Positions 18,360 to 62,924 of a stretch of 64,000 nucleotides of DNA are shown piece after piece. Under the pieces are notes generated by a model. The model worked only from the letters and a program-made list of their open reading frames with translations. It ran no database searches and was not told where the DNA came from. Positions within the stretch are counted from its first letter, which is position 1. The number at the start of each line of letters is the position of its first letter. The stretch spans positions 1 to 64,000 of the forward strand of contig NZ_JAGKTC010000004.1 in NCBI RefSeq assembly GCF_017939625.1, read 5' to 3'. The position numbers and the translations under genes were made by a program. This DNA is from Pseudoxanthomonas helianthi. Lineage in GTDB: Bacteria > Pseudomonadota > Gammaproteobacteria > Xanthomonadales > Xanthomonadaceae.

Positions 18360-18452
18360 GGAGAGGTGTCCGAGTGGTTGAAGGAGCACGCCTGGAAAGT
18401 GTGTAAGCGTCTAAACCGCGCTTCGGGGGTTCGAATCCCCCTCTCTCCGCCA
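18360..18452 (+). tRNA. tRNA-Ser (GGA)
   Basis: 93 nt with encoded CCA. Acceptor GGAGAGG pairs with TCTCTCC (one G-T), the anticodon loop is CTGGAAA (anticodon GGA), and it has the long class II variable arm. The last 14 bp (CCCTCTCTCCGCCA) recur at 62456-62469 beside an integrase gene, so this gene is the likely attachment site of the island that follows. Confidence 0.96.
18439..18452 (+). other. Putative attL: 3' end of tRNA-Ser
   Basis: CCCTCTCTCCGCCA, identical to 62456-62469 in the same orientation. Identity stops at both ends, so the core is only 14 bp. It marks the left border of the island by inference. Confidence 0.65.
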
Positions 18453-22439: not shown

Positions 22440-25277
22440 ATGACAGTTCGGCGCCATGAACGGAAGACACCGGTTACCTTGTTGGCATTGTCGATCGGCC
22501 TGGCGCTGCAGATGAGCGCCGCGCAGGCGCAGGAGGCCACCTCGCCGCCCGCGGCCGGTTCGGTACCTGCCACGCCCGCTCAGGCTGCAAGCGAAACCAC
22601 GCTGGACACGGTCACAGTCACCGGCTTTCGCGCCAGCCTGGAAAAGGCCATGGACATCAAGCGCGCCGAAAAGGGCGTGGTCGATGCGGTCGTCGCGGAG
22701 GATGTCGGCAAATTCCCCGATACCAATCTCGCCGAATCGCTGCAGCGCATCCCTGGCGTGGTCATAACCCGCGATGCCGGCGAAGGCCGCAACATCTCGG
22801 TACGCGGCCTCGGCCCCGACTTCACCCGTGTGCGCTTGAATGGCCTGGAAGCATTGAGCTCGGTCGGCAGCAGTGACGGCCAGGGCGGCACCAATCGCGG
22901 ACGTGGCTTTGATTTCAACGTGTTCGCAGCCGAACTGTTCAGCCAGCTGATCGTGCGCAAGACCCCGAGCGCAGATGTGGACGAAGGCTCGCTGGGCGCC
23001 ACCGTGGACCTACGCACCGCGCGCCCGTTCGACTACGGCGGCTTCACCGCGACCGCCAACCTGCAAGGCAGCTACAACGACGCGTCCGAAAACACCAGCC
23101 CGCGTTTCGCCGGTCTGATCGCCAACACTTGGGCCGACGGCAAGTTCGGGGCGTTACTGTCGGTGGCTTATTCCGAGCGTAAGTCCGTCGACGAAGGCAG
23201 CGGTACCGTGCGATGGGCCGGCGGCACGACGAACGGCGGTTTCAACGCCGCTTCGCCGTTCCAGGCGGCGCGCGCGGCCGACGTGTATGCCCCGCGCTTC
23301 CCGCGCTACACGCTAATGGAGCACGACCAGAAGCGCACCGGCATTACCGGCGCGCTGCAGTTCAAACCGGGCGACAACACCTTGTTCACCCTCGAGGCGC
23401 TGTATTCGAAGATCGACGCGGTACGTGACGAGAAATACATCGAAGCCAACGGTCTGAGCAAAACCGGTAACCAGGGAAAATCGCAGATCCTGGTCAGGGA
23501 CGGCGAAATCAGGAATGGCGCGCTGGTCTACGCGTTGATGGATAACGTCGACATCCGCGCCGAAAACCGCCACGACGAATGGACCACGGAGTTCAAGCAG
23601 TACAGCCTGGACGGCGAGCATCGCTTCAGCGACAACTTCAAGATCAGCGGCAAGATCGGCACCTCCGTCTCCAAGCACGACAATCCGGTGCAGGCGACGA
23701 TCATGATGGACAAGCTCGATGTCGATGGCTACAGCTACGACTACCGCGGCAACATGAACGAGCCGGTGTTCAACTACGGCTTCGACCCGACCAGTCCCGC
23801 TGGCTGGGACCTGTCCGTCATCCGCATGCGCGCCAACCAGGTGGAGAACGGATTCGACAACGGCCAGCTGGATTTCCAGTGGACCGTGGACGAGTACTTC
23901 ACCCTGAAAGGCGGCGTACAGTTCAAGAAGTACGACTTCGAATCGCACGAACAACGCCGCCGCGGCACCGAAACCATCGTGCCGAAGTTCAGTGACGGCA
24001 CCATCCACATGCCGGCGGACATGACCGAGTTGGCCAGCCTTTCCGGCATCAATGGCGCGCCCGGCACCTGGGTGGTCACCAACTTCGACGCATTGGCCAA
24101 TCTGTTCGACATCTATGGCGGCGGCAGCTTCAACGGCATCAACAGCGCCACGGGAGCCGCGGCGAGCGGCAGCTTCGCGATGGACAACTACGCGCCAAGC
24201 GATCGCAGCGTGACCGAGAAGGATCGCAGCATCTACCTGATGGCTGAATTCGGCTTCGACCTCGGTTCGATACCGGTTTCGGGCAATGCCGGCATCCGTC
24301 AGGTCCGCACCAGCCAGAGCTCGTCCGGCATCGCTACCGTCAACGGCACGCTGATACCGGTCACGGTGGACCGCGATTACACCGACACCTTGCCGGCAAT
24401 GAACCTGGTCGCGGAGATCACGCCGGACTTCCTGGTCCGCCTCGGCGCGGCCAAGGTGATGACCCGCCCGGGCCTGGGCAGCCTGACGCCAGGCGTGACC
24501 GTCAACGTCAGCGGCAGCGCGCGCACCATTTCCGCAGGCAACCCGTTTCTCGAACCTACCCGCGCCACCACTGTCGACTTGGGCGCCGAATGGTACTTCA
24601 GCGAAGGCGCGATGCTTGGCGCAGGCCTGTTCTACAAGGATCTGAAGAGCTTCATCCAGAACACGCGCCAGACCTTCGTCTATTCCGAAACAGGTTTGCC
24701 AGCCAGCCTGCTCGACGGCACGGGCGCTTCGACCAGCGACGAATTCGTGCTGAGCGTGCCGCTGAACACGCCGGGCGGCAAGGTGAAGGGTGTGGAGTTG
24801 AACTACGTGCAACCGTTCACCTTCCTGCCGGGCTTCTGGAGCGATTTCGGCGTGCAGTTGAACTACACCTACGTCGAGTCGGAGATCCAGTATCTGTTGG
24901 CCAACGGCACGCCGGCACAGAAGGAAGATTTCACCGGTCTATCGCGCAATTCGTGGAATGCGACGCTGTTCTATGAAGGCAAGCGTTTCTCCGGACGCAT
25001 CTCGGCCACCAACCGCGATGACTACCTGATCCAGGTCCCGGGCACCGAAGCCGGCTTCAACAGCGAAGCCAACGGCGTGCATGGACAAAGCGGCACCACG
25101 TTCGTCGATGCTTCCGTTCGCTGGAAGTTCAACGATCACATCGAAGTCAGCCTGGAAGGCAGCAACCTGACCAACGAGGCGCAGGAATCCTGGGTCGCCA
25201 ACCCCGCGCTGCAGTTGCCGCTGGAATACAGCAAGACCGGCCGCCAGTACCTGCTGGGCCTGCGCTACAAGTTCTGA
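22440..25277 (+). CDS. TonB-dependent receptor 1 of the pectin locus
   Basis: The 945-residue protein has a signal peptide (about 1-30, ending AQAQ), a TonB-box-like LDTVTVTG, a plug domain (about 50-200: VAEDVGKFPDTNLAESLQRIPGV, then RGLGPDFTRVRLNGLEAL) and a barrel ending in LRYKF. The plug motifs are those of the large xanthomonad/Caulobacter carbohydrate receptor family. Ribosome site AGGAGGGG lies 5 nt before ATG. Because of the operator upstream and the following GH43 gene, the likely cargo is a pectin-derived oligosaccharide; the exact ligand is inference. Confidence 0.92.
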   Translation: MTVRRHERKTPVTLLALSIGLALQMSAAQAQEATSPPAAGSVPATPAQAASETTLDTVTVTGFRASLEKAMDIKRAEKGVVDAVVAEDVGKFPDTNLAESLQRIPGVVITRDAGEGRNISVRGLGPDFTRVRLNGLEALSSVGSSDGQGGTNRGRGFDFNVFAAELFSQLIVRKTPSADVDEGSLGATVDLRTARPFDYGGFTATANLQGSYNDASENTSPRFAGLIANTWADGKFGALLSVAYSERKSVDEGSGTVRWAGGTTNGGFNAASPFQAARAADVYAPRFPRYTLMEHDQKRTGITGALQFKPGDNTLFTLEALYSKIDAVRDEKYIEANGLSKTGNQGKSQILVRDGEIRNGALVYALMDNVDIRAENRHDEWTTEFKQYSLDGEHRFSDNFKISGKIGTSVSKHDNPVQATIMMDKLDVDGYSYDYRGNMNEPVFNYGFDPTSPAGWDLSVIRMRANQVENGFDNGQLDFQWTVDEYFTLKGGVQFKKYDFESHEQRRRGTETIVPKFSDGTIHMPADMTELASLSGINGAPGTWVVTNFDALANLFDIYGGGSFNGINSATGAAASGSFAMDNYAPSDRSVTEKDRSIYLMAEFGFDLGSIPVSGNAGIRQVRTSQSSSGIATVNGTLIPVTVDRDYTDTLPAMNLVAEITPDFLVRLGAAKVMTRPGLGSLTPGVTVNVSGSARTISAGNPFLEPTRATTVDLGAEWYFSEGAMLGAGLFYKDLKSFIQNTRQTFVYSETGLPASLLDGTGASTSDEFVLSVPLNTPGGKVKGVELNYVQPFTFLPGFWSDFGVQLNYTYVESEIQYLLANGTPAQKEDFTGLSRNSWNATLFYEGKRFSGRISATNRDDYLIQVPGTEAGFNSEANGVHGQSGTTFVDASVRWKFNDHIEVSLEGSNLTNEAQESWVANPALQLPLEYSKTGRQYLLGLRYKF

Positions 25278-50274: not shown

Positions 50275-50673
50275 ATGAAAAACATTCGACTCGTCCCCGC
50301 GCCGCTTGCTCTCGGGGGTCTCACGGCTGCGGGTACTGCATTGGCACAGCAACAGGGCGTCACGCGCACCGAACTCCAGCGGCATGACCTCGCTATCCCG
50401 GGCCGCGAGGCGATCCAGATCCGCGTCGATCTCGATCCTCGAATCTCATTCCCCCTCCACTCGCATCCGGGCGAGGAAATCATCTAAGTGCTCGAGGGAA
50501 CCTGGGAGTATCAGGTCGAAGGCAAAGGCGTCATGACCTTGAAGGCAGGCGATGTCCTGTTCGTCCCTACTGGTACCAGGCATGCTGCCCGGAACGTTGG
50601 CCAAGGCAAGGCAGCGGAGCTTGCGACCTATATCGTCGAGAAGGGCAAGCCGCTGGTAGTTTTGGCCAAATGA
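50275..50673 (+). pseudogene. Secreted cupin-domain protein interrupted by an in-frame stop
   Basis: A good start (AGGAG 5 nt before ATG) gives a signal peptide and cupin motif 1 (FPLHSHPGEEII). TAA then interrupts at 50485-50487. The same frame continues without shift as VLEGTWEYQVEGKGV through motif 2 (VPTGTRHAARN) to a normal stop. In homologous cupins the interrupted position is usually an aromatic residue (IIYVLEG), so a single TAC/TAT-to-TAA change explains it. Intact length would be about 132 residues. Confidence 0.82.
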
Positions 50674-51048: not shown

Positions 51049-51900
51049 TTACAGCCCAGCCTGAGCCCGAACTACCTCGAAGCCGCCATCACAAAAATCA
51101 TCGTTGCCCGCCAATGCGCGATAGAGCTTGGCAAGCCAGTAGTTCGGCCCTGACAATTCCTCGAAGTCGACTGCCCCCTCGATCAGCTTCTCCGCGACGC
51201 GCTCCGCATTTTCACCCGAACCATAAGCGCGACGAAGCGCGGGATACTGCCCGCCCAAATGCTCGAGGCCCATCCGCCTGTAACGATCGGCGAGGTCGAG
51301 CTCGTTGAAGTGCGATCGCAGATGCCTGAAGGTTCGGAGTGCCATCTCGGCCGGTCGCGTCAGCCTGTAGGAGAGGATCAGGGCATCCGCCTCCATGCGC
51401 GCGCGCACCGTCAGAAACTCCGTATCTGGGATCACGTCGTAACAAGGGTGCAGAAACATCCGCACATTCGTCCCCTCATCCAGGATGCGGTCCCGTTTGC
51501 GCGTGTTGCAGACCGCACAGCTCGGCACGAGATTCTTCGGGAACACCGAGAACTCGGGGTATTGCTCCTTCGGCAGATAGTGGTCGAGCGTCGAGGTTTC
51601 GCTGATCCCGCAGAACGGGCACCGCGCGACGCTGATCCGCTTCAGGAGATCGCCGCGGAGTGCCGTCATTGGCTCGGTCTCCACGATGAATGCATGTCGC
51701 ATTGCCTCTTTCTGCGGGCCGGTTAACGCGGCTTCGTCTAGCCCGCCAACCTCAGGCACGGCATCCTCGTAGCCCTGATAGGCGGCAAGCACCTCCGCGC
51801 GCGCCGCCTGCATCCGCCCCCGTCGCGGTTGGCGCTTGGCCGCAGCGATCTCATCGAACACATCCGTCGCATCGACGGCGAGCAGCGGGATCGAGCGCAT
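51049..51900 (-). CDS. HNH endonuclease domain protein, PtuB-like
   Basis: The 283-residue protein has a zinc-associated HNH centre. CPFC is at 94-97, DH in TLDHYLPK at 106-107 (catalytic His), NLVPSC with Asn123, and CAVCN at 128-132. The flanking helical parts are less conserved. It starts 3 bp after the stop of the ATPase gene, so the two are translationally coupled. An ATPase directly followed by an HNH nuclease is the arrangement of Septu (PtuA-PtuB) and of retron effector modules; no reverse transcriptase is nearby. Nuclease activity on DNA or RNA is inferred. Confidence 0.82.
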   Translation of the reverse strand: MRSIPLLAVDATDVFDEIAAAKRQPRRGRMQAARAEVLAAYQGYEDAVPEVGGLDEAALTGPQKEAMRHAFIVETEPMTALRGDLLKRISVARCPFCGISETSTLDHYLPKEQYPEFSVFPKNLVPSCAVCNTRKRDRILDEGTNVRMFLHPCYDVIPDTEFLTVRARMEADALILSYRLTRPAEMALRTFRHLRSHFNELDLADRYRRMGLEHLGGQYPALRRAYGSGENAERVAEKLIEGAVDFEELSGPNYWLAKLYRALAGNDDFCDGGFEVVRAQAGL

Positions 51901-51903
51901 CCG

Positions 51904-53466
51904 CTATTCCTCGATTTCATCGCGAATGCTCAGAACGTAGGAACGCGCTGCGAAGCCGAGCTTCCGACCGAATGCCTCTTCGATTTCCTCAAGCGTGCTC
52001 CGACGCGCCAGTGCGCTCAGCGTCTCGTGCCAATCGGTTGAGCCGTCGCCAAGATTGAAGACCTCGTGTGTGATGACACCGATATTTTCCGCGAACGTCT
52101 CCACACTTGGCGCCACGACGCGGCTCTGATCAGCCGCTCGGCGCAGCACCTGGACGTATTTCGCGGGAGTCTCCTGCAGGACTACCGGCGAGTGAGTGGC
52201 GATGATCGCGTAGCCGTCAAACGCCTCCAGGCACGCTCGAACGCTCTTGAGAAATGCAGCGAGCAGCGGCGGATGGAGGTGCGTTTCGGGTTCATCGATG
52301 AGAACTAGGGTCGGCTCTGATCCCGAGATGTGTGCTGTGAGTTCGGTGACAATCTTGAGGACAACCTTGTGACCGCTGCTCAGTCCGCGGAAAAGCTCGC
52401 CCAGTTCGTCGTCATCGCGATTGGCGTAAAGTTGGGTCAATCCGATGCGCTGGAACGATGGGTCGCGCAGGAGCGGCCTCAAGATTTCCAGCAGGTTCTC
52501 CAGGCGGTCGGCTTGGCGGACGCGCTCCAGCGCCGACAAAAACTCTGCCTCGATCTCCGCCGGCGTGCGCAGCCGATAGGCCTGCTCACCGTTCGGCGCG
52601 TCATCGTCCGATCGTTCTCGAAGGCCGCAATAGACGTATCCGAAGATTTCTCCGCGCTCTTGGAGCCTCTCCTTCTCCTCCTCGGTGCGCCCAGGAATGA
52701 CGAAGGTGTCGAACGCACTGTAGGACACCACGACCACGGTCTTGAACGGTGGCGCGGTGCCGACGAACCGACCAGCCGCATCGCCCAACACGTCCTCTTT
52801 GCTGCCATAGCCGTATCCGCTCGCCACGATCGCGAGGTTCGAAAGTAGCCGAGTCTTGCCAGTGCCGTTGTATCCGATCAGGGCGTTGATACGGTTCGGC
52901 AGCCGACCGCGGCGCCGAAAATCGAAATCGATTGTGAAGGCGTTCGACCGTTGCGCCACCCGCGTCTTGAACTTGACTCTGAACCCCGCGCTTCGCCGTT
53001 TCGTCGGGAGAGTAGGCGCACGCAGCAATCGCGCGGCGTCACCGATCGTCCGCTCGGCGCCGCCAAAACGCAACAGCGAAACCCGATAGGCCTCGCTATC
53101 TTCAACGCTGGCCTTGATCTCGTCGTCGAACGCGACATCTCGAAGACCTCTGAAGTACGATTCGAAGACGTCTCGCCCGAGTTTATAGATTGTCTCATAA
53201 TAATCGAGATCGGCACCTAGCGAGGCATAGCCGGCGGGCAATTCCTCAAAAGGCCGCTTGGGCATTTCGGTGTAGCCACTCGTTCGACCCACCTCGATGA
53301 TCTTGATGCTGCCGAGATCATAGCTCTCATCGGCCGACACATGCAGGGTGACGTGGAAGGTAGTCTTATAGCCATAGTCATCCCAGTTGTCCTGGACGAG
53401 CACAGCATGGGGGTAACGATTGGTCGTGGGCGAGTCACCTGACCTGAACTTGACGACAAACCTCAT
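51904..53466 (-). CDS. OLD/PtuA-like AAA ATPase
   Basis: The 520-residue protein has an N-terminal region of about 170 residues without clear homology. Then follow Walker A NALIGYNGTGKTRLL (194-208), a signature-like LSSGHK segment, Walker B LVLIDEPETHLHPPLL (about 395) and the ATHSPVVLQE switch. It has no visible Toprim nuclease, so it needs a partner nuclease, supplied by the next gene. GGGAGA lies 5 nt before ATG. It begins 49 bp after the trlF-like gene on the same strand. Confidence 0.85.
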   Translation of the reverse strand: MRFVVKFRSGDSPTTNRYPHAVLVQDNWDDYGYKTTFHVTLHVSADESYDLGSIKIIEVGRTSGYTEMPKRPFEELPAGYASLGADLDYYETIYKLGRDVFESYFRGLRDVAFDDEIKASVEDSEAYRVSLLRFGGAERTIGDAARLLRAPTLPTKRRSAGFRVKFKTRVAQRSNAFTIDFDFRRRGRLPNRINALIGYNGTGKTRLLSNLAIVASGYGYGSKEDVLGDAAGRFVGTAPPFKTVVVVSYSAFDTFVIPGRTEEEKERLQERGEIFGYVYCGLRERSDDDAPNGEQAYRLRTPAEIEAEFLSALERVRQADRLENLLEILRPLLRDPSFQRIGLTQLYANRDDDELGELFRGLSSGHKVVLKIVTELTAHISGSEPTLVLIDEPETHLHPPLLAAFLKSVRACLEAFDGYAIIATHSPVVLQETPAKYVQVLRRAADQSRVVAPSVETFAENIGVITHEVFNLGDGSTDWHETLSALARRSTLEEIEEAFGRKLGFAARSYVLSIRDEIEE

Positions 53467-53515: not shown

Positions 53516-56494
53516 TCATCGCTCCAGCCTCACTCGTAGGCGTCTCGCCCGCTCGCGAAATGCCGCCTCGCCACCTTCCAGGATGTCGCAGACGGACTTG
53601 CGAATGTCGGCGCTCTCCAAGCCGCCCGCCACGTAGGTGATCGGCGGCAGGCCTCCCGAGGGGTGTGGGCCCGCGGACGCAACGATGATCTGATCTGCGT
53701 CAGTGTTGATGACGAGATTGGCGTTGTGTGTAACCATTATCACCTGGCGCTTGGTCTTCGCGGCGACGAACAACGCCACCAGTTCATCGAACACGGATTT
53801 GGGATCGAGGTTCTCCTCTGGCTGGTCAATGATCAGCGGCCGATCGTCTGAATCGTCCAGCGCCAGATACAACAGCAGCAGCACGATGCCCCGCGTCCCG
53901 GGTGACAGCTTTCGGATGTCGACACCGTCGTAGGAGATCTCGTAGCGAACGGTGATGTGGTCAGTACCAAAGAGCCAGTGCGCAAACTGTTTCGACCAGG
54001 TCCGGAATTCCGCCTGCTGCGTCGGCGCGTAAGGAGCATGCGACAACAGGTCTTTCAGATATTTCGCCATGAAGGCCGTCATGGCGGCCTGAACCTCGGT
54101 GGCCGATCCCGTCTCCCAGGCTGGTTTGAGCGCTTCCGCGGCGGCCGCGATCAGAGAGCCTCGACCATAAAAGGGCCCGGTCTTACGCCGATCGAGGAGC
54201 TCTTCCTCCGCCACCGAGCCCCAGGTTTGAACGTCTGCGATCCTGCGGACCGAGAAACTGAGCTTCTTGAGCGTGCCCGACGATGCTGCAAGCCGGGCCA
54301 TCAGCGGGGCATAGAGCCCGGCCAGCGCGTTCTGTTCGTTGATGATCGCCTCGAACACCCGGCCGTAGGTGTCGTCGCGTTCGGTCTGCAGATCCTTCCG
54401 GCGCGCCGCTGCGCCCTGCGCATCCGTGAGCCGGGCTTCGAGGGTCTGGATCGCGGAGTTCTCTTGCGCGATCCGGCCAGTCAGCGCCGTGTATTGATCG
54501 CGGACCAGCTTGTCGGCGCTGAATAGCGCCTCGAGGCGCGACATTTCGGCGACGATGGGTGCGAGCGGCAGCGTTGAGAGATCGACGGCATCGGGAACCA
54601 GCGCTACATTCGGATCGCCAGGCGGCGGTGGAACACCATTGAGCTTGCGGACCTCACCATCGGCCCACGCGATGTAAGCCGTGAGACTCTTATCGACGTC
54701 ACCCTTGTAGATTAGCAGGAACTCGTCCCACTGCTTGGCGTCGAGACCGCTATTACCGTGCCGCGCCTGAGCCTGGCGGAGCATTTCCGGCGCCCCGGTG
54801 GCGCGCATACTGCGGACCTCATCCTGCAGGGCGACGAAGGTGCGGCGCTGGTTGCCGAAGGCCTGGATCCTGTTACGCAGCGCCTGGGCAGCCTCGCTGA
54901 GCCGTGTGTGACGGGCAACTTGCGCCTCGGTTCCCTTCACAACGAGCTTTGCGCGATCGGCTGTATAGTCGGCGACTAGCTTTTTCTTCTGTCCGAGCTG
55001 GGTAGCCAGCGTCGCGACGAGGCTCTCTTTCTCAAACTCAGTAGCAATGCGATCCGAGATATCGCCGATTGCCTCGACTTCGCGCTCACGCGCCTGCCGA
55101 AACCGGGCAGTTTGCTGCTCGCGCAACTCGGCGAAATCGAGCGCCCACTCGCGATCATCTTGGGAATGGGAGTCGAAGATAACGCGCTCGATCTCGTCCA
55201 CGAGCCCGTCGGCGACCCCTTTCGCAGAGCAGAGTTCCTCGACGAACTGCTGGGAAAGATAGCGGGCGCGCGGAAATGACAAGTGGCCGTTGGCGTCGCT
55301 ACCATCGAGCGCACGTGTAGCAGTCGCGCCACCAGCCCAGGTCAACGTCGCAGTGGCCGTGCCAACAAGCTTGCGCGCCCGAGCCAGGAACGAGGGGCTG
55401 ATGTTCTCGTCCGCTTTCCAACCGTCCGGTGTGATCGCATCGCAGCCCGCTGCGATCACATCTGCCAAGGCCGTCTTTCCTGATCCCCGTGCGCCGATTA
55501 TGGCGACAAGGCCGGGATTCAAGGGGATGTCGGGTGTAGTCGCCCACCCGGCGTCGTCAATTCGGAGGTGTGAGATAACCTGCGACGGCATGGCCGAGCG
55601 AGGCGGCTGTTCACCGACATAGGCGCGCCCGTCGGGATCGATGCACGCCTGCCGAAGCGCATCGAATTCCAGCCCGCCCTTGATCCATGAGAAGCGATTG
55701 CCGAATGGCGAGGCCACGTCGTCGAGCTTGTGCGCGTCACTCCCATGCAGACAGGGTTTCAAGCCGCCATACCGGGAGCGGATTTCATCGGGTCCGAGAT
55801 CCTTCCGACCCAACCAGAACTCTCGCTGCGCCGGGCTGCCCGCGAAGATCACATGGGCAAAGCCCTCAATCTCGCGCCGGATCGTTTGATCCGCTGCCTC
55901 GCGCACGCCCGACGTGCCGTCCGTAGCGCCGCCGGCCACCGCTATCAGAATGTTCTTCTTCGCCCATCCGCTTTCGGAGAACACCTCGCGAAGCTGCTGG
56001 AAATTGACCTTGAACTGGCTGGCCCCGTAGGCCAGCGCGGCTCGATCGTCGGCGATCGTAGCGTCGGCCTTCTTACCGAGCCGGATGAGATCAGCACGCG
56101 TGCAATCGAAACGATCCTGCATAACGTTGAACTGCAGGCGCGACAGCAGACGTCTTAGCTCTTCGAGATGCTGCGGATCCTCAGGGCTGACAAACAAGTG
56201 GGCATTGACGAAACCACCTCTAGCGGTTGCCACGTCAAGTCGCAACTCCACGTTGGGGAAAATGAGCTTGGCGTGTGGCAGACGACCAGTTGACTTGTGG
56301 AACAACACTTGTTCATAGGTATCGGTGACGTAGTAGTCCGTGACCGCGATCGCCTCGATAAGCGGCGTCGCATTCTCGAGAGCAGTCAAATACTGGTCCC
56401 AAGCATTCGGACCTTGAAACTGGTTGTTCATGGCCGTGCCCGGAGCATGGATATGTGGTTCCCACCTCCGCCACTCCGATCCTCGACTAAACAC
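53516..56494 (-). CDS. trlF: TrlF-family PHP/SMC-like ATPase
   Basis: The 992-residue protein's GTG start is set by AGGAGGGGG 5-10 nt upstream and by the family opening SRGSEWRRWEPHIHAPGT; a frame extending to 56797 adds unrelated sequence. The N-terminal PHP-like phosphoesterase part (about 1-300) has HIH at 14-16, AIAVTDYY and CLHGSDAHKLD. An ABC/SMC-type ATPase follows: Walker A IIGARGSGKTALAD (about 330), long coiled-coil arms (about 430-700), and LSPGTRG then PLIIDQPEENLD as signature and Walker B (about 870-895). It is likely a nucleic-acid-sensing or processing enzyme in a defence operon; the reaction is unknown. Confidence 0.85.
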   Translation of the reverse strand: MFSRGSEWRRWEPHIHAPGTAMNNQFQGPNAWDQYLTALENATPLIEAIAVTDYYVTDTYEQVLFHKSTGRLPHAKLIFPNVELRLDVATARGGFVNAHLFVSPEDPQHLEELRRLLSRLQFNVMQDRFDCTRADLIRLGKKADATIADDRAALAYGASQFKVNFQQLREVFSESGWAKKNILIAVAGGATDGTSGVREAADQTIRREIEGFAHVIFAGSPAQREFWLGRKDLGPDEIRSRYGGLKPCLHGSDAHKLDDVASPFGNRFSWIKGGLEFDALRQACIDPDGRAYVGEQPPRSAMPSQVISHLRIDDAGWATTPDIPLNPGLVAIIGARGSGKTALADVIAAGCDAITPDGWKADENISPSFLARARKLVGTATATLTWAGGATATRALDGSDANGHLSFPRARYLSQQFVEELCSAKGVADGLVDEIERVIFDSHSQDDREWALDFAELREQQTARFRQAREREVEAIGDISDRIATEFEKESLVATLATQLGQKKKLVADYTADRAKLVVKGTEAQVARHTRLSEAAQALRNRIQAFGNQRRTFVALQDEVRSMRATGAPEMLRQAQARHGNSGLDAKQWDEFLLIYKGDVDKSLTAYIAWADGEVRKLNGVPPPPGDPNVALVPDAVDLSTLPLAPIVAEMSRLEALFSADKLVRDQYTALTGRIAQENSAIQTLEARLTDAQGAAARRKDLQTERDDTYGRVFEAIINEQNALAGLYAPLMARLAASSGTLKKLSFSVRRIADVQTWGSVAEEELLDRRKTGPFYGRGSLIAAAAEALKPAWETGSATEVQAAMTAFMAKYLKDLLSHAPYAPTQQAEFRTWSKQFAHWLFGTDHITVRYEISYDGVDIRKLSPGTRGIVLLLLYLALDDSDDRPLIIDQPEENLDPKSVFDELVALFVAAKTKRQVIMVTHNANLVINTDADQIIVASAGPHPSGGLPPITYVAGGLESADIRKSVCDILEGGEAAFRERARRLRVRLER

Positions 56495-56674
56495 TTTCCC
56501 CCTCCTGGCTCGCCCAAAATTCCAAAAGCGCCAAAGTCTGTGTCGGAGTTTATCTTCACCTAGATTGGCCAACAACCAGGCAGGGAAGCGGCAAGGGCGT
56601 CCGCTTCGGGTCGCACCACGCCTAGTTTCTAAGTGCAGGAGAAGCCTGATAAACCCTCTCAACAAGAGTTGGTC

Positions 56675-56965
56675 ATGGCAATTCTTCACACATCTCAGCG
56701 CCACGATCCCTGGAACAAGGGAAAGCTGATCGGCCAGAAGGCCTCGCTCAAGCTGAAAGACATCTGGGCTATCCGAATCAGGCTGCAGTTGAGTCAAAAG
56801 GTCCGAGACCTTGCCTTGTTCAATCTGGCGATCGATTCTAAGCGCGGTACTTCGACCGGCAGACGGTCGTGGAGATCCACGACTAGGGACGTCTTGCAGC
56901 GCGCCGTCGTGGGCAGACCGCCGGCGAGCGGCCGATTCTCAACCATAATGGATCAGTACCCCTAA
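56675..56965 (+). pseudogene. Truncated tyrosine recombinase, N-terminal part
   Basis: The first ~57 residues (HDPWNKGKLIGQKASLKLKD then IWAIRIRLQLSQKVRDLALF and NLAIDSK) match the SAM-like N-terminal region of a common group of short plasmid/island integrases. After that the sequence diverges to unrelated Arg-rich residues and stops; no catalytic Arg-His-Arg-Tyr part is present. It is on the strand opposite to its neighbours and is a relic of an earlier mobile element. Confidence 0.7.
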
Positions 56966-57115: not shown

Positions 57116-57490
57116 CTAGCCTCCCATCTTCCTATGCTGGTATGGCAGCAAGGCCGCTGCAAAGCGAATACGCAGGGAAACGGGGAGGTCCTCGCAGTTC
57201 ATTGCGTCGACCAAGAACTCAATGGCGCTGCTATAAACCCTCTTAGGCATAGCGGGAGACGCCGCTTCCCAGCGTCCTGCCGATCGCCTGAACATAACCG
57301 CTACCGCGCGCTGAGATATCTCCAGGTCGAATCCGCCTTTGAGCAGCTCCGCGCGAATACCCGGGTGCTTCATCAGGTTAGTCCCCTGCTGTTTCGCGCC
57401 GGCCAAGCTATACCCTGCCGCAATCACCGCCTGACGATTCGACAGGCCATCCAGCTTACCTCTGACGAATGCCATCTGCCTTGGTGTCAT
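57116..57490 (-). CDS. Terminase small subunit-like protein
   Basis: The 124-residue protein starts MTPRQMAFVRGKLDGLSNRQAVIAAGYS, the helix-turn-helix pattern of phage terminase small subunits (TPKQxxFVxxYL...AAxxAGYS). It ends SLRIRFAAALLPYQHRKMGG, as in the Terminase_2-like group. AGAGGT lies 7 nt before this ATG; a 12-residue longer form lacks a ribosome site. No large terminase, portal or capsid gene follows, which fits a phage satellite redirecting packaging, or a remnant. Confidence 0.72.
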   Translation of the reverse strand: MTPRQMAFVRGKLDGLSNRQAVIAAGYSLAGAKQQGTNLMKHPGIRAELLKGGFDLEISQRAVAVMFRRSAGRWEAASPAMPKRVYSSAIEFLVDAMNCEDLPVSLRIRFAAALLPYQHRKMGG

Positions 57491-57607
57491 TTTATTTACC
57501 TCTGAGCGGATAAAAAATATGCGCATGAGGGAACGGGCGGTCTAGGTGTCAAATCGCTCTGAACTTTCGACCCGCCCTCCCCCGTCGTCTATTTGAGGAC
57601 TGTGTGC

Positions 57608-59656
57608 TCATTTCTGCGTCGGCAGCGGCGGCGGAAGCGGCAAGAGACCCGACAGCTTTGGTTGGGCATCTTGATCACCTTGAGCACCTTGATTGCCGAC
57701 CAATGGCATCGGCTTGGGTGGGGGCAACAACGGCAGTCTCCACACCCAAGTACCGCCGCCGAGCTTCTGGGCTTTGACGTTGGTGTCGTCCTTAGCCCTG
57801 CGCAGCGTCGCCCAAGAATGCCCTTCGATCGCCCCCTCGCTCCTGATTTGCTTCGGGGGCACTGGTCCGGTGGCCAAGCGATCGAGTAGCCATGCTCGGG
57901 CATCACCACGCGCACTATTCGGTGCTTCCATACTCTCCATTTGCGTGAGAAGCGAACGAGCACTTCCTTCTATGGCAGATCCCCAAACCACTTTTGATCC
58001 CGTGACTCCCGGGAAGCCCGCCAACTCAGGAAACTCGAGGCTGTATTCAAATCCACCCGTGTTGGGTCCGAGGTTGGACTTGGATCGAATGAAGATTCGA
58101 CGCTGTGACCCATCCTCCTTGGATTCGGACACGGCCGACATAAACACCAGCCTGGCCAGTGCCACGAAAGCCAGCGATCCGGCGACGCGCTCATTGGCAT
58201 CTCGCCCCTGCGTACCCTTACTCAAATGGGTGATGCCCAATACGGCGCAGTTGAACTTTGAAGCCAAATCTACCAGCGGTTGCAGGGCGCGACGAGTTTC
58301 GGTGTTCTTGTGTGAGTCTCCTCCGACGACCGAGACGATGGGATCGATGATGATCAGCGCAACGCCTGGATGCTTAAGTAGATGATCCTCAAGTAGCGGC
58401 AGATCTTTGCTCGGATCAAATGAATACTCTTTACCTCGCTCGGAAATCCCCGTAATAAATTCCACTTTCGACATATCCGCATTGCATGCCATGAAACGTG
58501 GAACGAGAACATTCTTGACATCATCCTCGCCGGACCACATGAGCACGTCGCCCCGTCTGGCTTGGGAGCCGTCCGGCCAACGACCGCCTCGTGTGATCGT
58601 GGCGCCCAAGTCACATGCCGTGGTCGTCTTTCCGCTGCCTGCGGCCCCCGCAGAGATGTGCATCTTTCCTCGTGCAATCCATCCGTGCCATAGCCAGTCG
58701 ACTGCCTCCGGAACCACTTGATCACCGCGCTGGATGACCACTTCGGACTGGCCCAAGGCGCTCAAGGTGCTCAAGGGAGTCAACATGGGCAATGCCTGAG
58801 TACCCACGTCGTCCCTACTCGTGCCCAGGGCTTGCGGAGTGTCCCGGCACAATGGCTCTTTTGCGCCAGATCTCATCGCACTTTTAATGGTACTGAGCGT
58901 CTTTCTCGGGTTAGACCAGCCCTTGGTCGCTTCAACCAATAATCTCTGCGTATCTCCCTCCTCCAATCTGCCAGCACCTACCAAGCGACCCAGGACAAAG
59001 GCACCTTTGTTCAACACGTCATTCCGCGAACCTGGAGGCGTTGCGGCGATTTCCTCGATTTTCCGGTTTCTCAGATCAATGGCGAGAAGATCGGTCGAGG
59101 GTAAGAACTCCCACGGATACAGCGCGCTTCCCTCAAACATCCAGTAACGGCTTCCGGTGATGGGCAAGTACAACGGCTGCTCCGCGCGGTCACATGCCTC
59201 GTCCCACTTGATATCACTGCTCAACGCAGCACGTACCGTGGCAGAGACGCGCTTGAGTTCATCACGGCCCAACGCATACGCCAGTTCGATCAGGATTCGA
59301 AACCGAGGCGCGCTTTCCGTGTGGCTTGCCGTGGTGTACATCAGCGCCTTGTATGCCTGCAGCTTTTGATGGAGAAGCACAAACCCTTGCGGCGTACAGC
59401 CATCTGCATCCAGCCCCAACCAATTCCGGGGCTGCGCACTTTCACGTGAGCGGTGCGGTTTGCCTAGAACCGCGTTCTCGTATGTTGCGCAGTGTTGCTC
59501 ATTGGCGACCGCGAAAGGCGTGGCAATCCACTGCTCACCCTTCTTCTGACCAAAGTCGGAAAGTACGGCCTCACGGAAGGCATCGAATGAATCTACCTCC
59601 CGGATCTCGGGCAGCGCATCGTAGCGGTTCTTTCCGCGGCTATAGCGAGTTTTCAT
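57608..59656 (-). CDS. Island replication protein: primase-like N-terminus with RepA-type helicase
   Basis: The 682-residue protein has an N-terminal third with AEP-like elements NWLGLDADG (Asp-x-Asp near residue 80) and TASHTESAPRFRIL (Ser-x-His-like). A RecA-fold RepA/AAA_25 domain follows (about 330-560: Walker A AGAAGSGKTTT, Walker B LIIIDPIVSVVGGD, GITHLSKG). A Pro-rich tail ends the protein. Such primase-helicases replicate phage satellites and integrative elements. The start was chosen because AGGTGG lies 6 nt upstream of this ATG; an 18-residue longer form is less supported. Confidence 0.85.
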   Translation of the reverse strand: MKTRYSRGKNRYDALPEIREVDSFDAFREAVLSDFGQKKGEQWIATPFAVANEQHCATYENAVLGKPHRSRESAQPRNWLGLDADGCTPQGFVLLHQKLQAYKALMYTTASHTESAPRFRILIELAYALGRDELKRVSATVRAALSSDIKWDEACDRAEQPLYLPITGSRYWMFEGSALYPWEFLPSTDLLAIDLRNRKIEEIAATPPGSRNDVLNKGAFVLGRLVGAGRLEEGDTQRLLVEATKGWSNPRKTLSTIKSAMRSGAKEPLCRDTPQALGTSRDDVGTQALPMLTPLSTLSALGQSEVVIQRGDQVVPEAVDWLWHGWIARGKMHISAGAAGSGKTTTACDLGATITRGGRWPDGSQARRGDVLMWSGEDDVKNVLVPRFMACNADMSKVEFITGISERGKEYSFDPSKDLPLLEDHLLKHPGVALIIIDPIVSVVGGDSHKNTETRRALQPLVDLASKFNCAVLGITHLSKGTQGRDANERVAGSLAFVALARLVFMSAVSESKEDGSQRRIFIRSKSNLGPNTGGFEYSLEFPELAGFPGVTGSKVVWGSAIEGSARSLLTQMESMEAPNSARGDARAWLLDRLATGPVPPKQIRSEGAIEGHSWATLRRAKDDTNVKAQKLGGGTWVWRLPLLPPPKPMPLVGNQGAQGDQDAQPKLSGLLPLPPPLPTQK

Positions 59657-59770
59657 CTGGCGCCACCTACCAGCGAGATCTGAGCAGGTGTCCGCAGCAC
59701 TGGCCAGCATTTATGAATACTCATGCCACCTAGACAGCAGTGCGCGCGACCTACCGGAATATCTGGCTCC

Positions 59771-60064
59771 CTACTCATGGTTCACCGTCCAACCCTCCTC
59801 ACGCAGGCACTCCAACAACTCGTTGGCCACGAACCAGCGATGCCCGTTGGACCACCTGAACACCTTCTTGGTCCGCGTGCTCGCCAATAACAGCAGCGGT
59901 ACGGATAACCGCGAGTCGAGGGCGTCCAGGTCGGTCGACTGCAGCGGGCGCCCAAGGACGCTTTCAGCGCGCGTGACGGCCCACTGACAGGCGCGTAACG
60001 GAATGTCACTGCCGGCGGGCTGCATATCGAACAGGCGGCGACCCAGCAAAGCTTGCGTGCTCAT
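59771..60064 (-). CDS. Small island protein of unknown function
   Basis: 97 residues with no recognised domain. Its ATG overlaps the alpA stop (ATGA), so it is translated with AlpA. It lies between alpA and the replication gene, a common position for small satellite accessory proteins. Confidence 0.65.
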   Translation of the reverse strand: MSTQALLGRRLFDMQPAGSDIPLRACQWAVTRAESVLGRPLQSTDLDALDSRLSVPLLLLASTRTKKVFRWSNGHRWFVANELLECLREEGWTVNHE

Positions 60065-60282
60065 TTGGCCTCCTTACTGATACCTTGGGCATCCAGCCAC
60101 TGGAGGACCTCGGAGACGCGCCAAGCGGAGATGTGCCCAGGCAATCGGATCGGACGGGGAAAGTCGCCCGTACGAATGCGGCGCCACAACGTGGCGGCAG
60201 CGAACGGCAAGACGGGCAACAAGTCGCGCTGACGGATCAGCGCATTGGGCGGCAACTGCGCCCAGTTGATGGGGTAATTCAA
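60061..60282 (-). CDS. AlpA-family excision/regulatory protein
   Basis: The 73-residue protein is a MerR-like winged helix: LIRQRDLLPVLPFAAATLWRRIRTGDFPRPIRLPG, then AWRVSEVLQWLDAQG. AlpA proteins act as excisionase and transcription activator of integrase or replication genes in P4-like and other satellites. It sits between the integrase side and the replication gene. Confidence 0.9.
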   Translation of the reverse strand: MNYPINWAQLPPNALIRQRDLLPVLPFAAATLWRRIRTGDFPRPIRLPGHISAWRVSEVLQWLDAQGISKEAK

Positions 60283-60349
60283 AGTTCTGACTCCATCTGG
60301 GGTGGGATGAGTCAGCCTGAAGATTCCGGGAAATGCCTCTCGCCGATAT

Positions 60350-61108
60350 CTAGCCCGAAACTCCTTTCACCTCGAACTTGACCCCCAGAATGGCCATTAC
60401 CGCCTTGGCAAACTGATCAGTGCTCCTGGGCGGTGGCGGATTATTCGGGTCACGGTTGGTCTCCCGCCAGTCCGCTTCGCGCCGAGGATGAAGATGCTTG
60501 AGGTACAGCGCGCCCAGTTCTCGCTCGAACATGTCTCGCGCTGCACGAAACCGTTTGGTGAAGGCCTTAGGAGGCTGCACTCGTTCGCAGACATCAATCA
60601 CCACTTCCAGAGCGTGAGCAAACTCTTCTCTATGTGGCTCCCAAAGTCGCACACGCACGATGTGTAGCCGCAGCAGCTGCCTGGCTTCCAAGAAAGCGCT
60701 CCGCTCTTCCATCGCCGAGATCTGCGCATCGGTCAAGCCGGGGAAAGCATGCAGCGATTGGCTCAGGGCCTGCGCTGCCTTAAAGCAGCCCTGATCATCT
60801 TTCAGCTCGGCGTGCTGATTCACCAACCTCTGCACGAGCTTGGCCCGCTGAAGCAGTGTTTCTATGTCGCGCTTCTCATCGCCAACGGAAGCCTGCTTGA
60901 CCAGCGCGTGTTCCGTGGCGCAGTAGGAACCATGGGCAAGCCAGAGTGCCTCCAGATAAGCATCGCAGTCGGCGACTTCATCGCGATCCAGTCCGTACTG
61001 CTCACCGATTTCCAGCAGTTGCTTTTTTTCCGGCGCACTAAATGGTCGGCCACCGACACCCGAGATCGGCTTGGACCTGACCTTACGCGGGCGCCCGCTT
61101 TTGTTCAC
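60350..61108 (-). CDS. Island protein of unknown function coupled to the integrase
   Basis: The 252-residue protein begins with a basic GRPRKVRSKP stretch (AT-hook-like) and is otherwise helical, charged and without a recognised fold. Its ATG overlaps the integrase stop codon (ATGA), so it is translated from the integrase mRNA. Similar uncharacterised proteins follow integrases in many islands. Confidence 0.75.
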   Translation of the reverse strand: MNKSGRPRKVRSKPISGVGGRPFSAPEKKQLLEIGEQYGLDRDEVADCDAYLEALWLAHGSYCATEHALVKQASVGDEKRDIETLLQRAKLVQRLVNQHAELKDDQGCFKAAQALSQSLHAFPGLTDAQISAMEERSAFLEARQLLRLHIVRVRLWEPHREEFAHALEVVIDVCERVQPPKAFTKRFRAARDMFERELGALYLKHLHPRREADWRETNRDPNNPPPPRSTDQFAKAVMAILGVKFEVKGVSG

Positions 61109-62289
61109 TTCTTGCCACCAGCCGCAAATTTCGCCCAGTCCGCCATCATTGCCGTGCGCTTGGAGAACAGATCCCCGCGCCGATAGGCCGCTTCAACCTT
61201 GTCCCCGATCGTATGGGCCAAGGCCATCTCGGCCACGTCCCGCGGGTACTCCGTGTGCTCGGCCGCCCAGTCGCGGAAAGTGGAGCGAAAACCGTGGGGC
61301 ACGGCATCCACGTCCATGCGGCGCATCAGTGCCGTCAGAGCCATGTCCGAGAGCATGCCGCCACGCTCAGCCGGAAACAGGAGCGGCGTGTGCGCAAATC
61401 GAGGCAGCTTCTTCAGCAAAGCTACCGTGCGCGCCGTCAGCGGCACCCGATGTTCCTTGCCTGCCTTCATGCGGCTGGCCGGAATGGTCCAGACATTTTC
61501 CTTCAGGTCGATCTCTTCCCACGTGGCCCCGCGTACCTCCCCGCTGCGCGTAGCCGTGAGGATCAGGAACTCCAGCGCGCGCGCACTGGCGCCTTCACGT
61601 TTGCGCAGTTGGGCAACAAAGGCCGACAGTTGGCTCAAGGGCAGCGCACGGTGGTGCTCGACCTTGGCCACCTTGCCGGGCTTGGCCAACACCGCATCCA
61701 GGTTGCCGCGCCAGCGCGCGGGGTTCTCACCCTTGCGAAAACCCGAGGCTCCGGCCCAGGCTAACACCGCTTCCAGTCGCGCCCGCAGGCGGGTGGCTGT
61801 CTCGGTCTTCTCGATCCAGATCGGGCTCAGTATCTCGACGACGTGGCGCAGCTCCACCTGGTCCACCGGCATGTTGCCCACCACCGGCTTGGCATAGGTA
61901 TCCAGCGTGCTCTTCCATTGCTCGGCGTGCTTGGCGCTCTTCCACTCCGGCCGCTTGGCCTCGATGGTGCGTCGGGCACATTCGGAGAAGGAAGGGGTTT
62001 CGCGCAGAACCGTCTTGGCTGCCCTACGGGCTTCGATGGGATCGATCCCCTCCTCGATCTTGCGTCGGGCCTGACGCGCTCGATCGCGGGCCTCAGCCAA
62101 GGGAACATCGGGCCATCCTCCCAGCCCCATATCGCGCCGCCGGTTGCCCACGGTGACGCGCAGAATCCAGTTCCTGGCCCCGGAGGGCGCCACACGCAGG
62201 TACAATCCCGTCGCTCCGCCAGCGGCATGCATGCCAACCGGCAGGCGCGGTAGCTGGGCCGCGGCGATCTCCTTGGTTTTCTTGGGCAT
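61105..62289 (-). CDS. Tyrosine integrase of the tRNA-Ser island
   Basis: The 394-residue protein has an N-terminal DUF4102-type arm-binding domain (about 1-90: GLYLRVAPSGARNWILRV, MGLGGWPDVPLAEARDRARQ), a SAM-like core (about 100-190) and the catalytic domain (about 215-375). The catalytic residues are Arg in TATRSGEVRG, His and Arg in PHGFRSTFRDW, His in ALAHTIGDKVE and Tyr in AAYRRGD. This P4-type family commonly uses tRNA genes as target. It lies about 165 bp from the right att copy and reads into the island. Confidence 0.94.
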   Translation of the reverse strand: MPKKTKEIAAAQLPRLPVGMHAAGGATGLYLRVAPSGARNWILRVTVGNRRRDMGLGGWPDVPLAEARDRARQARRKIEEGIDPIEARRAAKTVLRETPSFSECARRTIEAKRPEWKSAKHAEQWKSTLDTYAKPVVGNMPVDQVELRHVVEILSPIWIEKTETATRLRARLEAVLAWAGASGFRKGENPARWRGNLDAVLAKPGKVAKVEHHRALPLSQLSAFVAQLRKREGASARALEFLILTATRSGEVRGATWEEIDLKENVWTIPASRMKAGKEHRVPLTARTVALLKKLPRFAHTPLLFPAERGGMLSDMALTALMRRMDVDAVPHGFRSTFRDWAAEHTEYPRDVAEMALAHTIGDKVEAAYRRGDLFSKRTAMMADWAKFAAGGKK

Positions 62290-62455: not shown

Positions 62456-62469
62456 CCCTCTCTCCGCCA
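62456..62469 (+). other. Putative attR: copy of the tRNA-Ser 3' end
   Basis: CCCTCTCTCCGCCA, identical to 18439-18452 and in the same orientation. It lies between the integrase gene and the ffs gene and is not part of a complete tRNA. It also forms the right arm of a local dyad (GGCGGAGAG ... CTCTCCGCC). Confidence 0.65.
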
Positions 62470-62508: not shown

Positions 62509-62620
62509 GGTGACCCCGTCGGTCCCTCGCGACGCTAGATCGAAAATCCCGCCAGGGCCGGAAGGCAGCAACGGTATCGGTCGATGCGGGCGCCGAGGAT
62601 AGCCGGCGGGGTCATCGCCT
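62509..62620 (+). ncRNA. ffs: 4.5S signal recognition particle RNA
   Basis: It contains the Ffh-binding core CAGGGCCGGAAGGCAGCAAC, very close to the E. coli 4.5S loop. The ends pair: GGTGACCCC at the 5' side with GGGGTCATC at the 3' side, giving a long hairpin of about 110 nt. Exact ends are estimated from the pairing. SRP RNA with Ffh targets membrane proteins. In the uninterrupted chromosome it would lie just downstream of tRNA-Ser. Confidence 0.88.
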
Positions 62621-62924
62621 TTTCGGGTTTGGTCGATACAGCCAGCCACTCACTGCCCCCGGCCGTTGCGACGGCATCATTGACATTGAACGGGACGCCT
62701 CTCGCGGCGCGGCAGCAACGGTATCGACTGACACGGGCGCCGAGGATCGTCGGCGGGGCCGCCGCCTTTTTGGGCCGGTCGATGCATTCAGCCACTCACT
62801 GCCCTTGGCCGTTGCGACGGCATCATTGACATTGAACGGGACACCTCTCGCGGCGCGGCAGCGACGGTATCGACCGACGCGGGCGCCGAGGATCGTCGGC
62901 GGGGCCGCCGCCTTTTCGGGCCCA
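62564..62924 (+). repeat. Tandem repeat of about 146 bp derived from the 3' half of ffs
   Basis: Units begin at 62564 (inside the real ffs), 62711 and 62857. Periods are 147 and 146 bp; the last unit is partial. Each repeats GGCAGC(A/G)ACGGTATCG and the 3' stem (GGGCGCCGAGGAT ... GGCGGGG). A shared linker holds CATCATTGACATTGAACGGG. The two extra units lack the GGGCCGGAAGG segment needed for Ffh binding. Confidence 0.85.

Follow-up and report, generated by a model that had tools for sequence, protein, structure and literature searches.

A probable phage satellite with a phage-type cos-like site and a truncated terS at tRNA-Ser(GGA) in Pseudoxanthomonas helianthi

Introduction

Six genes on one strand of a Pseudoxanthomonas helianthi contig include an integrase, an AlpA regulator, a primase-helicase and a gene resembling a terminase small subunit (terS). 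A sequence-only reading of this block took it for a satellite or its relic. Does the block derive from a phage satellite, from a decayed prophage or from an island that does not move, and could it still be mobilized? We analyzed these genes within the window, the whole 64-kb stretch of DNA (positions 1 to 64,000 of the contig), and compared them with sister genomes, other family genomes and viral contigs.

Results

The six-gene core

All six genes named in the sequence-only reading are present where it placed them, on the minus strand:

61105-62289, minus: tyrosine integrase (int; Pfam Arm-DNA-bind_3, Phage_int_M, Phage_integrase)
60350-61108, minus: 252-aa gene, no family match in Pfam, PHROG, PADLOC and other profile searches
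60061-60282, minus: AlpA regulator/excisionase (PF05930, 6.4e-8)
59771-60064, minus: 97-aa gene, an open reading frame without assigned family, at the position of up1 in PICMI
57608-59710, minus: primase-helicase (AAA_25, 9e-35; PHROG DNA polymerase/primase, 9e-22)
57116-57526, minus: terS-like frame as listed (PF03592, 2e-6; phrog_641 terminase small subunit, 1e-15)

The int frame is intact and keeps the R248, HGFR and AHTI motifs. The primase-helicase is also intact, with the primase motif LDADG and the Walker A motif GAAGSGKT. Two ATGA overlaps had been described. The one between AlpA and the 97-aa gene is indeed ATGA, whereas int and the 252-aa gene overlap by the 4 nt GTGA, with a GTG start. 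The 252-aa gene occupies the same position as the PICMI excision gene iolg. No homologues of it were found in viral contigs, and its single-sequence fold prediction was uninformative (mean pLDDT 45). Searches of the 64-kb window by tblastn with the proteins of relatives found nothing above noise for capsid, protease, portal or large terminase (TerL), which bears out the earlier statement that capsid, portal and large terminase are absent. No lysis families were found among the core genes with Pfam and PHROG profiles.

Integration at the 3' end of tRNA-Ser(GGA)

The core is flanked on its int side by one copy of a perfect 14-base repeat:

18439-18452, plus: attL core, CCCTCTCTCCGCCA, the last 14 bases of tRNA-Ser(GGA) (18360-18452)
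62456-62469, plus: attR core, a perfect copy of the attL 14-mer, with the ancestral tRNA-ffs spacer next to it

The 14-mer has no further copy at up to one mismatch within the 64-kb window, and attR is located 167 bp from the int start. In sister genomes from this genus, DNA matching 7.8-18.455 kb of the window, ending in tRNA-Ser(GGA), directly joins DNA matching 62.5 kb onward, where ffs (4.5S RNA) is located. This direct junction shows that the segment 18453-62469 was inserted at the 3' end of tRNA-Ser(GGA). The unoccupied, joined attB would consist of the tRNA-Ser 3' end followed by GATTTTTAAG. Integration into ffs, which is located beside int, was considered and excluded, because in the sister genomes the break falls at the tRNA-Ser 3' end, and because ffs is present as one undamaged copy. 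Several sister genomes carry different insertions at the tRNA-Ser/ffs site, which identifies it as a hot spot. None of the sister genomes carries any copy of the satellite core.

The two att copies are 44,017 bp apart; the distance is about 11.4 kb when just the part from the defence gene PDC-M01B to attR is counted. The interval contains a pectin-utilisation locus (21101-48073) with a chromosomal G+C content of 0.65. Copies that match this locus at least partly are found in 26-29 of 38 genus genomes. Most sister genomes keep it elsewhere, and in the complete genome G014 it is about 0.9 Mb from ffs. The G+C content is 0.60 in the core, 0.61 in the defence genes and 0.51 in the first 2.3 kb of the interval. 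Since the att sites also enclose a locus typical of the genus, the 44-kb interval is composite, and its excision as one unit may have ceased. A tRNA-Glu call at 23206, inside a TonB-receptor frame, was taken as a false positive.

The surroundings of the insertion show two additional features. In the region 3325-62985, tRNA-Met and nuoN are about 59 kb apart, compared to about 90 bp in sister genomes, and the chromosomal segment that separates them carries tRNA-Ser and the island as well as the sole ffs gene. The separation points to a translocation, or perhaps to a fault in the assembly. The ffs gene (62516-62612) is followed by two 146-bp tandem units (62564-62922) in which the 3' half of the SRP RNA gene recurs, giving three copies of a 64-nt segment that are 83-86% identical to the first. 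Similar extra SRP RNA copies adjoin ffs in several sister genomes.

A terS gene without its conserved tail

Comparison with homologues indicated a shorter terS than the frame listed above:

57116-57490, minus: terS (PF03592/phrog_641), without the conserved C-terminal ~35 residues (G[ED]xGKKE...)

The coding start is most likely located at 57490 rather than at 57526, judging from the homology and from a ribosome-binding-like AGAGG upstream, and the 5' stretch of the listed frame would then be non-coding. At the other end, homology stops at about 57118. The window TerS covers positions 2-115 of the 150-position family model and retains the HTH part. Complete relatives are essentially full-length, and each of the eight further sequences in the alignment, from satellites and phages, keeps the tail.

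Removal of the tail from P22 TerS abolishes DNA binding and the association with TerL, and in lambda the C-terminal region of the small terminase binds TerL (PMC9611059). In HK97, the C-terminal helix of TerS reads cos DNA (PMC11331095). We conclude that the window TerS is probably inactive. With the conserved tail missing, packaging, if any, would probably be performed by a helper terminase. Helper enzymes are used for packaging by EcCICFT073 (PMC6092414). In a TerS tree the window protein groups with satellite TerS with a support of 100/100, apart from most phage TerS, with the caveats that phage L098 is also on the satellite side and that the window branch is long.

A cos-like site common to phages and satellites

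A conserved site was found between the primase and terS:

57510-57583, minus: cos-like packaging site, GGGGGAGGGCGGGTCGAAAGTTCAGAG - N - TAGACCGCCCGTTCCCTCA (57526-57544) - TGCGCATATTTTTT, a layout common to phages and satellites

Its core is TAGACCGCCCGTTCCC, and between the two genes it reads TTTGACACCTAGACCGCCCGTTCCCTCATGCGCA. In capsid-bearing satellites the portal-terS junction carries (T)TGACRYCTAGACCGCCCGTTCCCTCAT with small variations. We scanned 2.9 million viral contigs with the pattern TAGACCGNNCGTYCCCTCA and obtained 23 stretches. Most of these are phages of 35-48 kb, with the motif 5' of TerS-TerL-portal and often an HNH gene directly before it. The phage version of the motif is preceded by a G-rich stretch, for example GGGGAGGGGGCGTCAAAAGTCTGA, and followed by CGCGCAGAAAATTT; the G-rich half is also retained in the window. 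Bordetella phage vB_BbrS_PHB09 likewise has the arrangement HNH - G-rich/A-tract - TerS - TerL. In HK97, cleavage is stimulated by an HNH nuclease next to cos, and an A-tract immediately downstream of the cut serves as a binding site for TerS (PMC11331095; PMC9410871).

Among 375 family genomes, the exact site is found in two, that of the window and that of the L121 satellite, and adjoins terS in each. Sites with one mismatch are found in the L122 satellite and in an integrase island of G386, and a control with the reversed pattern gave two matches at up to one mismatch in the same 375 genomes. We found no prophage that carries this cos in the element's own genome, and the same cos was not found in the other capsid-less int-AlpA-primase elements (L077, L078, L080 and L083). 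The position and conservation of the site strongly suggest that it is a cos. Its left half is phage-like, unlike the left half in capsid-bearing satellites. Simple deletion from an ancestor like the L120 satellite is therefore not the only conceivable route to the present element.

Two further loci contain such motifs. The island in G386 (L195, 7268-10229) is located at a tRNA-Lys and has a frameshifted integrase and the cos-like site, after which an IS-like sequence interrupts the island at the contig end. The viral contig L188 has two cos-like motifs, at 1908 and 9492. Behind one of them lie terS and a cut terL, and behind the other a terS-like gene. L188 is possibly a prophage with a neighbouring satellite or a second phage.

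Relatives of the core, including capsid-bearing satellites without TerL

The window int and AlpA are 72% and 55% identical, respectively, to those of L100, a cfPICI-like viral contig of 13 kb with capsid, protease, portal and TerL (Pfam). Relatives of the primase are 44-52% identical and are found in two settings. In the first, which has the cfPICI layout (L063, L073, L137-L139, L141), int-X-AlpA-X-primase precedes genes for capsid, protease, portal, HNH, TerS and TerL. In the second (the capsid-less L077, L078, L080 and L083), the same front is present without structural genes. A terS (phrog_641) next to the primase was not found in the other primase relatives, and the plasmid and phage collections contained distant primase matches alone. 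In the primase tree, the window protein groups with that of satellite L120 (support 98/96) and is nested among satellite primases.

A search with TerS revealed a third setting, in which capsid-protease-portal-TerS occurs in the absence of both TerL and tail genes. It is found in L120 and L121 from the same family, in L122 from the same genus, and in viral contigs L132-L136 and L184. A number of the contigs are fragmentary, but three elements, each 10.6-10.9 kb long and located at tRNA-Val(CAC), are complete and carry genes for capsid, protease and portal as well as cos and TerS:

L120, 1530-12161: att repeats of tRNA-Val, 52 bp, perfect
L121, 6984-17686: att repeats of tRNA-Val, 48 bp, perfect
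L122, 800-11714: att repeats of tRNA-Val, 45 bp, perfect

Their gene order is tRNA - cargo - terS - portal - protease - capsid - primase - HTH - int, which places terS and cargo near the tRNA and int farthest from it. The window shares this polarity. The capsid-protease-portal block, located between the primase and cos-terS in the relatives, is absent from it. The sequence-only reading had proposed that relatives with complete phage structural genes would make the block a decayed prophage. Relatives do contain capsid, protease and portal genes, but the complete ones contain neither TerL nor tail genes, and are therefore capsid-forming satellites rather than prophages. Within a limited coverage of the literature, we found no published description of capsid-protease-portal-TerS satellites that have no large terminase. 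A lone terS remnant, likely the scar of a satellite, is located near tRNA-Pro(CGG) in the same-genus genome G008 (L124, 9959-10315; same TerS family).

Putative defence genes in the cargo slot

Downstream of terS the window contains a putative defence operon and a gene fragment:

56669-56842, plus: tyrosine-recombinase scrap, 58 of 209 aa, 90% identical to a gene in sister genomes
53516-56485, minus: TrlF-family AAA-like ATPase, putative defence cargo (NF045780, 696 bits, 1.6e-208)
51904-53466, minus: PDC-M01A/PtuA-like ATPase, putative defence cargo (PADLOC, 6.5e-143; PtuA model over its full length, 1.3e-101)
51049-51900, minus: PDC-M01B HNH endonuclease, putative defence cargo (PADLOC, 1.8e-57)

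The last two genes had been labelled PtuAB. In a comparison with Septu, their best PADLOC labels are PDC-M01A and PDC-M01B, and the A protein also matches one PtuA model over its full length. TrlF and PDC-M01AB are located between terS and the tRNA, which is the cargo slot of the relatives; in L120, this slot contains the PADLOC candidate PDC-S59. This position partly supports the proposal, made for TrlF-PtuAB, that they are anti-phage cargo. However, the junction between terS and TrlF is broken. The terS tail is gone, and the recombinase scrap of 58 codons lies in between. The defence genes may have arrived by a later rearrangement. Between an ABC-F gene and the defence operon there is a cupin-like frame (50287-50673) with a stop codon at 50485, a probable pseudogene.

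Discussion

Origin and present state of the element

Our analysis indicates that the element is probably a phage satellite of the PICI/cfPICI kind and that its own tyrosine integrase inserted it into the 3' end of tRNA-Ser(GGA). The att repeat in tRNA-Ser, the satellite gene order, the relationships of the primase and TerS to those of satellites and the phage-type cos-like site all point to this origin, and the same evidence upholds the designation as a satellite or its relic. A decayed prophage, meaning the remnant int, primase, cos and terS of a once full HK97-like phage whose TerL, head, tail and lysis genes are gone, is improbable. TerS is derived from phages, as is the cos-like site, whose left half is of the phage type, and terS is damaged, as expected under such decay. 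However, int-X-AlpA-X-primase is a satellite order, the primase is nested among satellite primases, and the complete relatives with head genes are elements of 10.6-10.9 kb that have perfect att repeats and neither TerL nor tails.

Whether the element still functions is a separate matter, and our assessments are not mutually exclusive: a satellite-derived element could be an inert scar at present. It is possible, at a clearly lower likelihood than a satellite origin, that int-AlpA-primase is such a scar in a non-mobile integrase island, and that the tRNA-Ser/ffs hot spot independently acquired TrlF/PDC-M01AB, the pectin locus and the ABC-F gene. The broken terS, the recombinase scrap, the composite 44-kb interval and the varied insertions at this site in several sister genomes are consistent with this, whereas the intact frames and motifs of int, AlpA and the primase, the perfect att repeat and the exact cos-like site argue against it. 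The opposite case, a fully active cos-type satellite whose short TerS is functional or blocks the helper by occupying its cos, is unlikely. The HTH part of TerS and cos are kept, and truncated competitors are plausible in satellite interference, but every other satellite and phage TerS compared conserves the tail, the loss of which in P22 ends DNA binding and TerL association (PMC9611059), and the C-terminal helix of HK97 TerS reads cos (PMC11331095). Within the satellite reading, excision capacity is plausible, since int, AlpA and att are intact, and productive transfer of the 44-kb unit is doubtful. It is very unlikely that a helper of about 44-48 kb genome size excises and packs the whole att-to-att interval as one unit through the shared cos. 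If it did, a satellite would move an entire chromosomal pectin-utilisation locus and two defence systems between bacteria.

Comparison with known systems

Gram-negative PICIs employ terS or cos (PMC6092414). The window resembles EcCICFT073 and PmCI172 (PMC6092414) in having int, AlpA, a primase-replication module and att repeats, as well as accessory or defence genes at the end, terS or a helper-like cos, and no structural genes. It differs from them in the 44-kb att interval and the truncated terS. Compared to the features that define PICIs (Fillol-Salom et al. 2018), the window has int at one end, an AlpA-type regulator and a primase/replication module, in this order, and the core contains no phage structural or lysis genes. 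For terS or a helper cos/pac it has the cos-like site, with terS truncated. Its 44,017 bp between att sites exceed the size of about 15 kb, which is worded as typical and given for Gram-positive PICIs.

The front half, int-X-AlpA-X-primase, is the same as in cfPICI relatives, where capsid, protease and portal directly follow the primase. A cfPICI has its own capsid, protease, portal, TerS and TerL, as do L063, L073, L138 and others. Unlike these, the window contains no capsid, protease, portal, HNH, TerL or adaptor, and its TerS (PF03592) is of another type than in the cfPICI-like loci compared. Its closest relatives are unusual compared to cfPICIs, as they have capsid genes and TerS but no TerL.

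The window also resembles the experimentally proven PICMIs, which have the gene order int-iolg-alpA-up1-prim (PMC10803314). Both have int, an int-overlapping gene, alpA, one further gene and the primase in the same order, a minimal content and no capsid-remodelling genes. Unlike PICMIs, the window element is at tRNA-Ser rather than fis, is not from Vibrionaceae, has an AAA_25 rather than a DUF3987/DUF5906 primase, and carries terS and an HK97-type cos. Siphophages with the order HNH-cos-TerS-TerL (for example Bordetella phage vB_BbrS_PHB09; IMG/VR L170-L189) have the cos-like site and the TerS family in common with the window; unlike it, they have TerL, portal and further late genes. On this sequence evidence, they are candidate helpers and not relatives of the whole element.

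Proposed mechanism and implications

We propose that infection or induction by a helper phage would induce AlpA. AlpA, the integrase and the 252-aa protein encoded by the int-overlapping gene would then bring about excision, by analogy to PICMI115, in which AlpA triggers excision, a step that requires iolg (PMC10803314). The primase-helicase would replicate the element, and TerS, TerL and the HNH nuclease of the helper would cut at cos and pack it into helper heads. In this proposal, the element would originate from a capsid-bearing satellite that lost its head block, and would be partly decayed today.

The element links capsid-less PICI-like elements, capsid-forming satellites and a class of helper phages defined by a common cos. 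Two results are most useful: this common cos, which names the candidate helper class and offers a direct route to finding the helper of the element, and the recurrent satellites of about 10.7 kb that encode capsid, protease, portal and TerS without a large terminase, which need a specialist check. The capsid-less element suggests how satellites shift between their own heads and borrowed heads.
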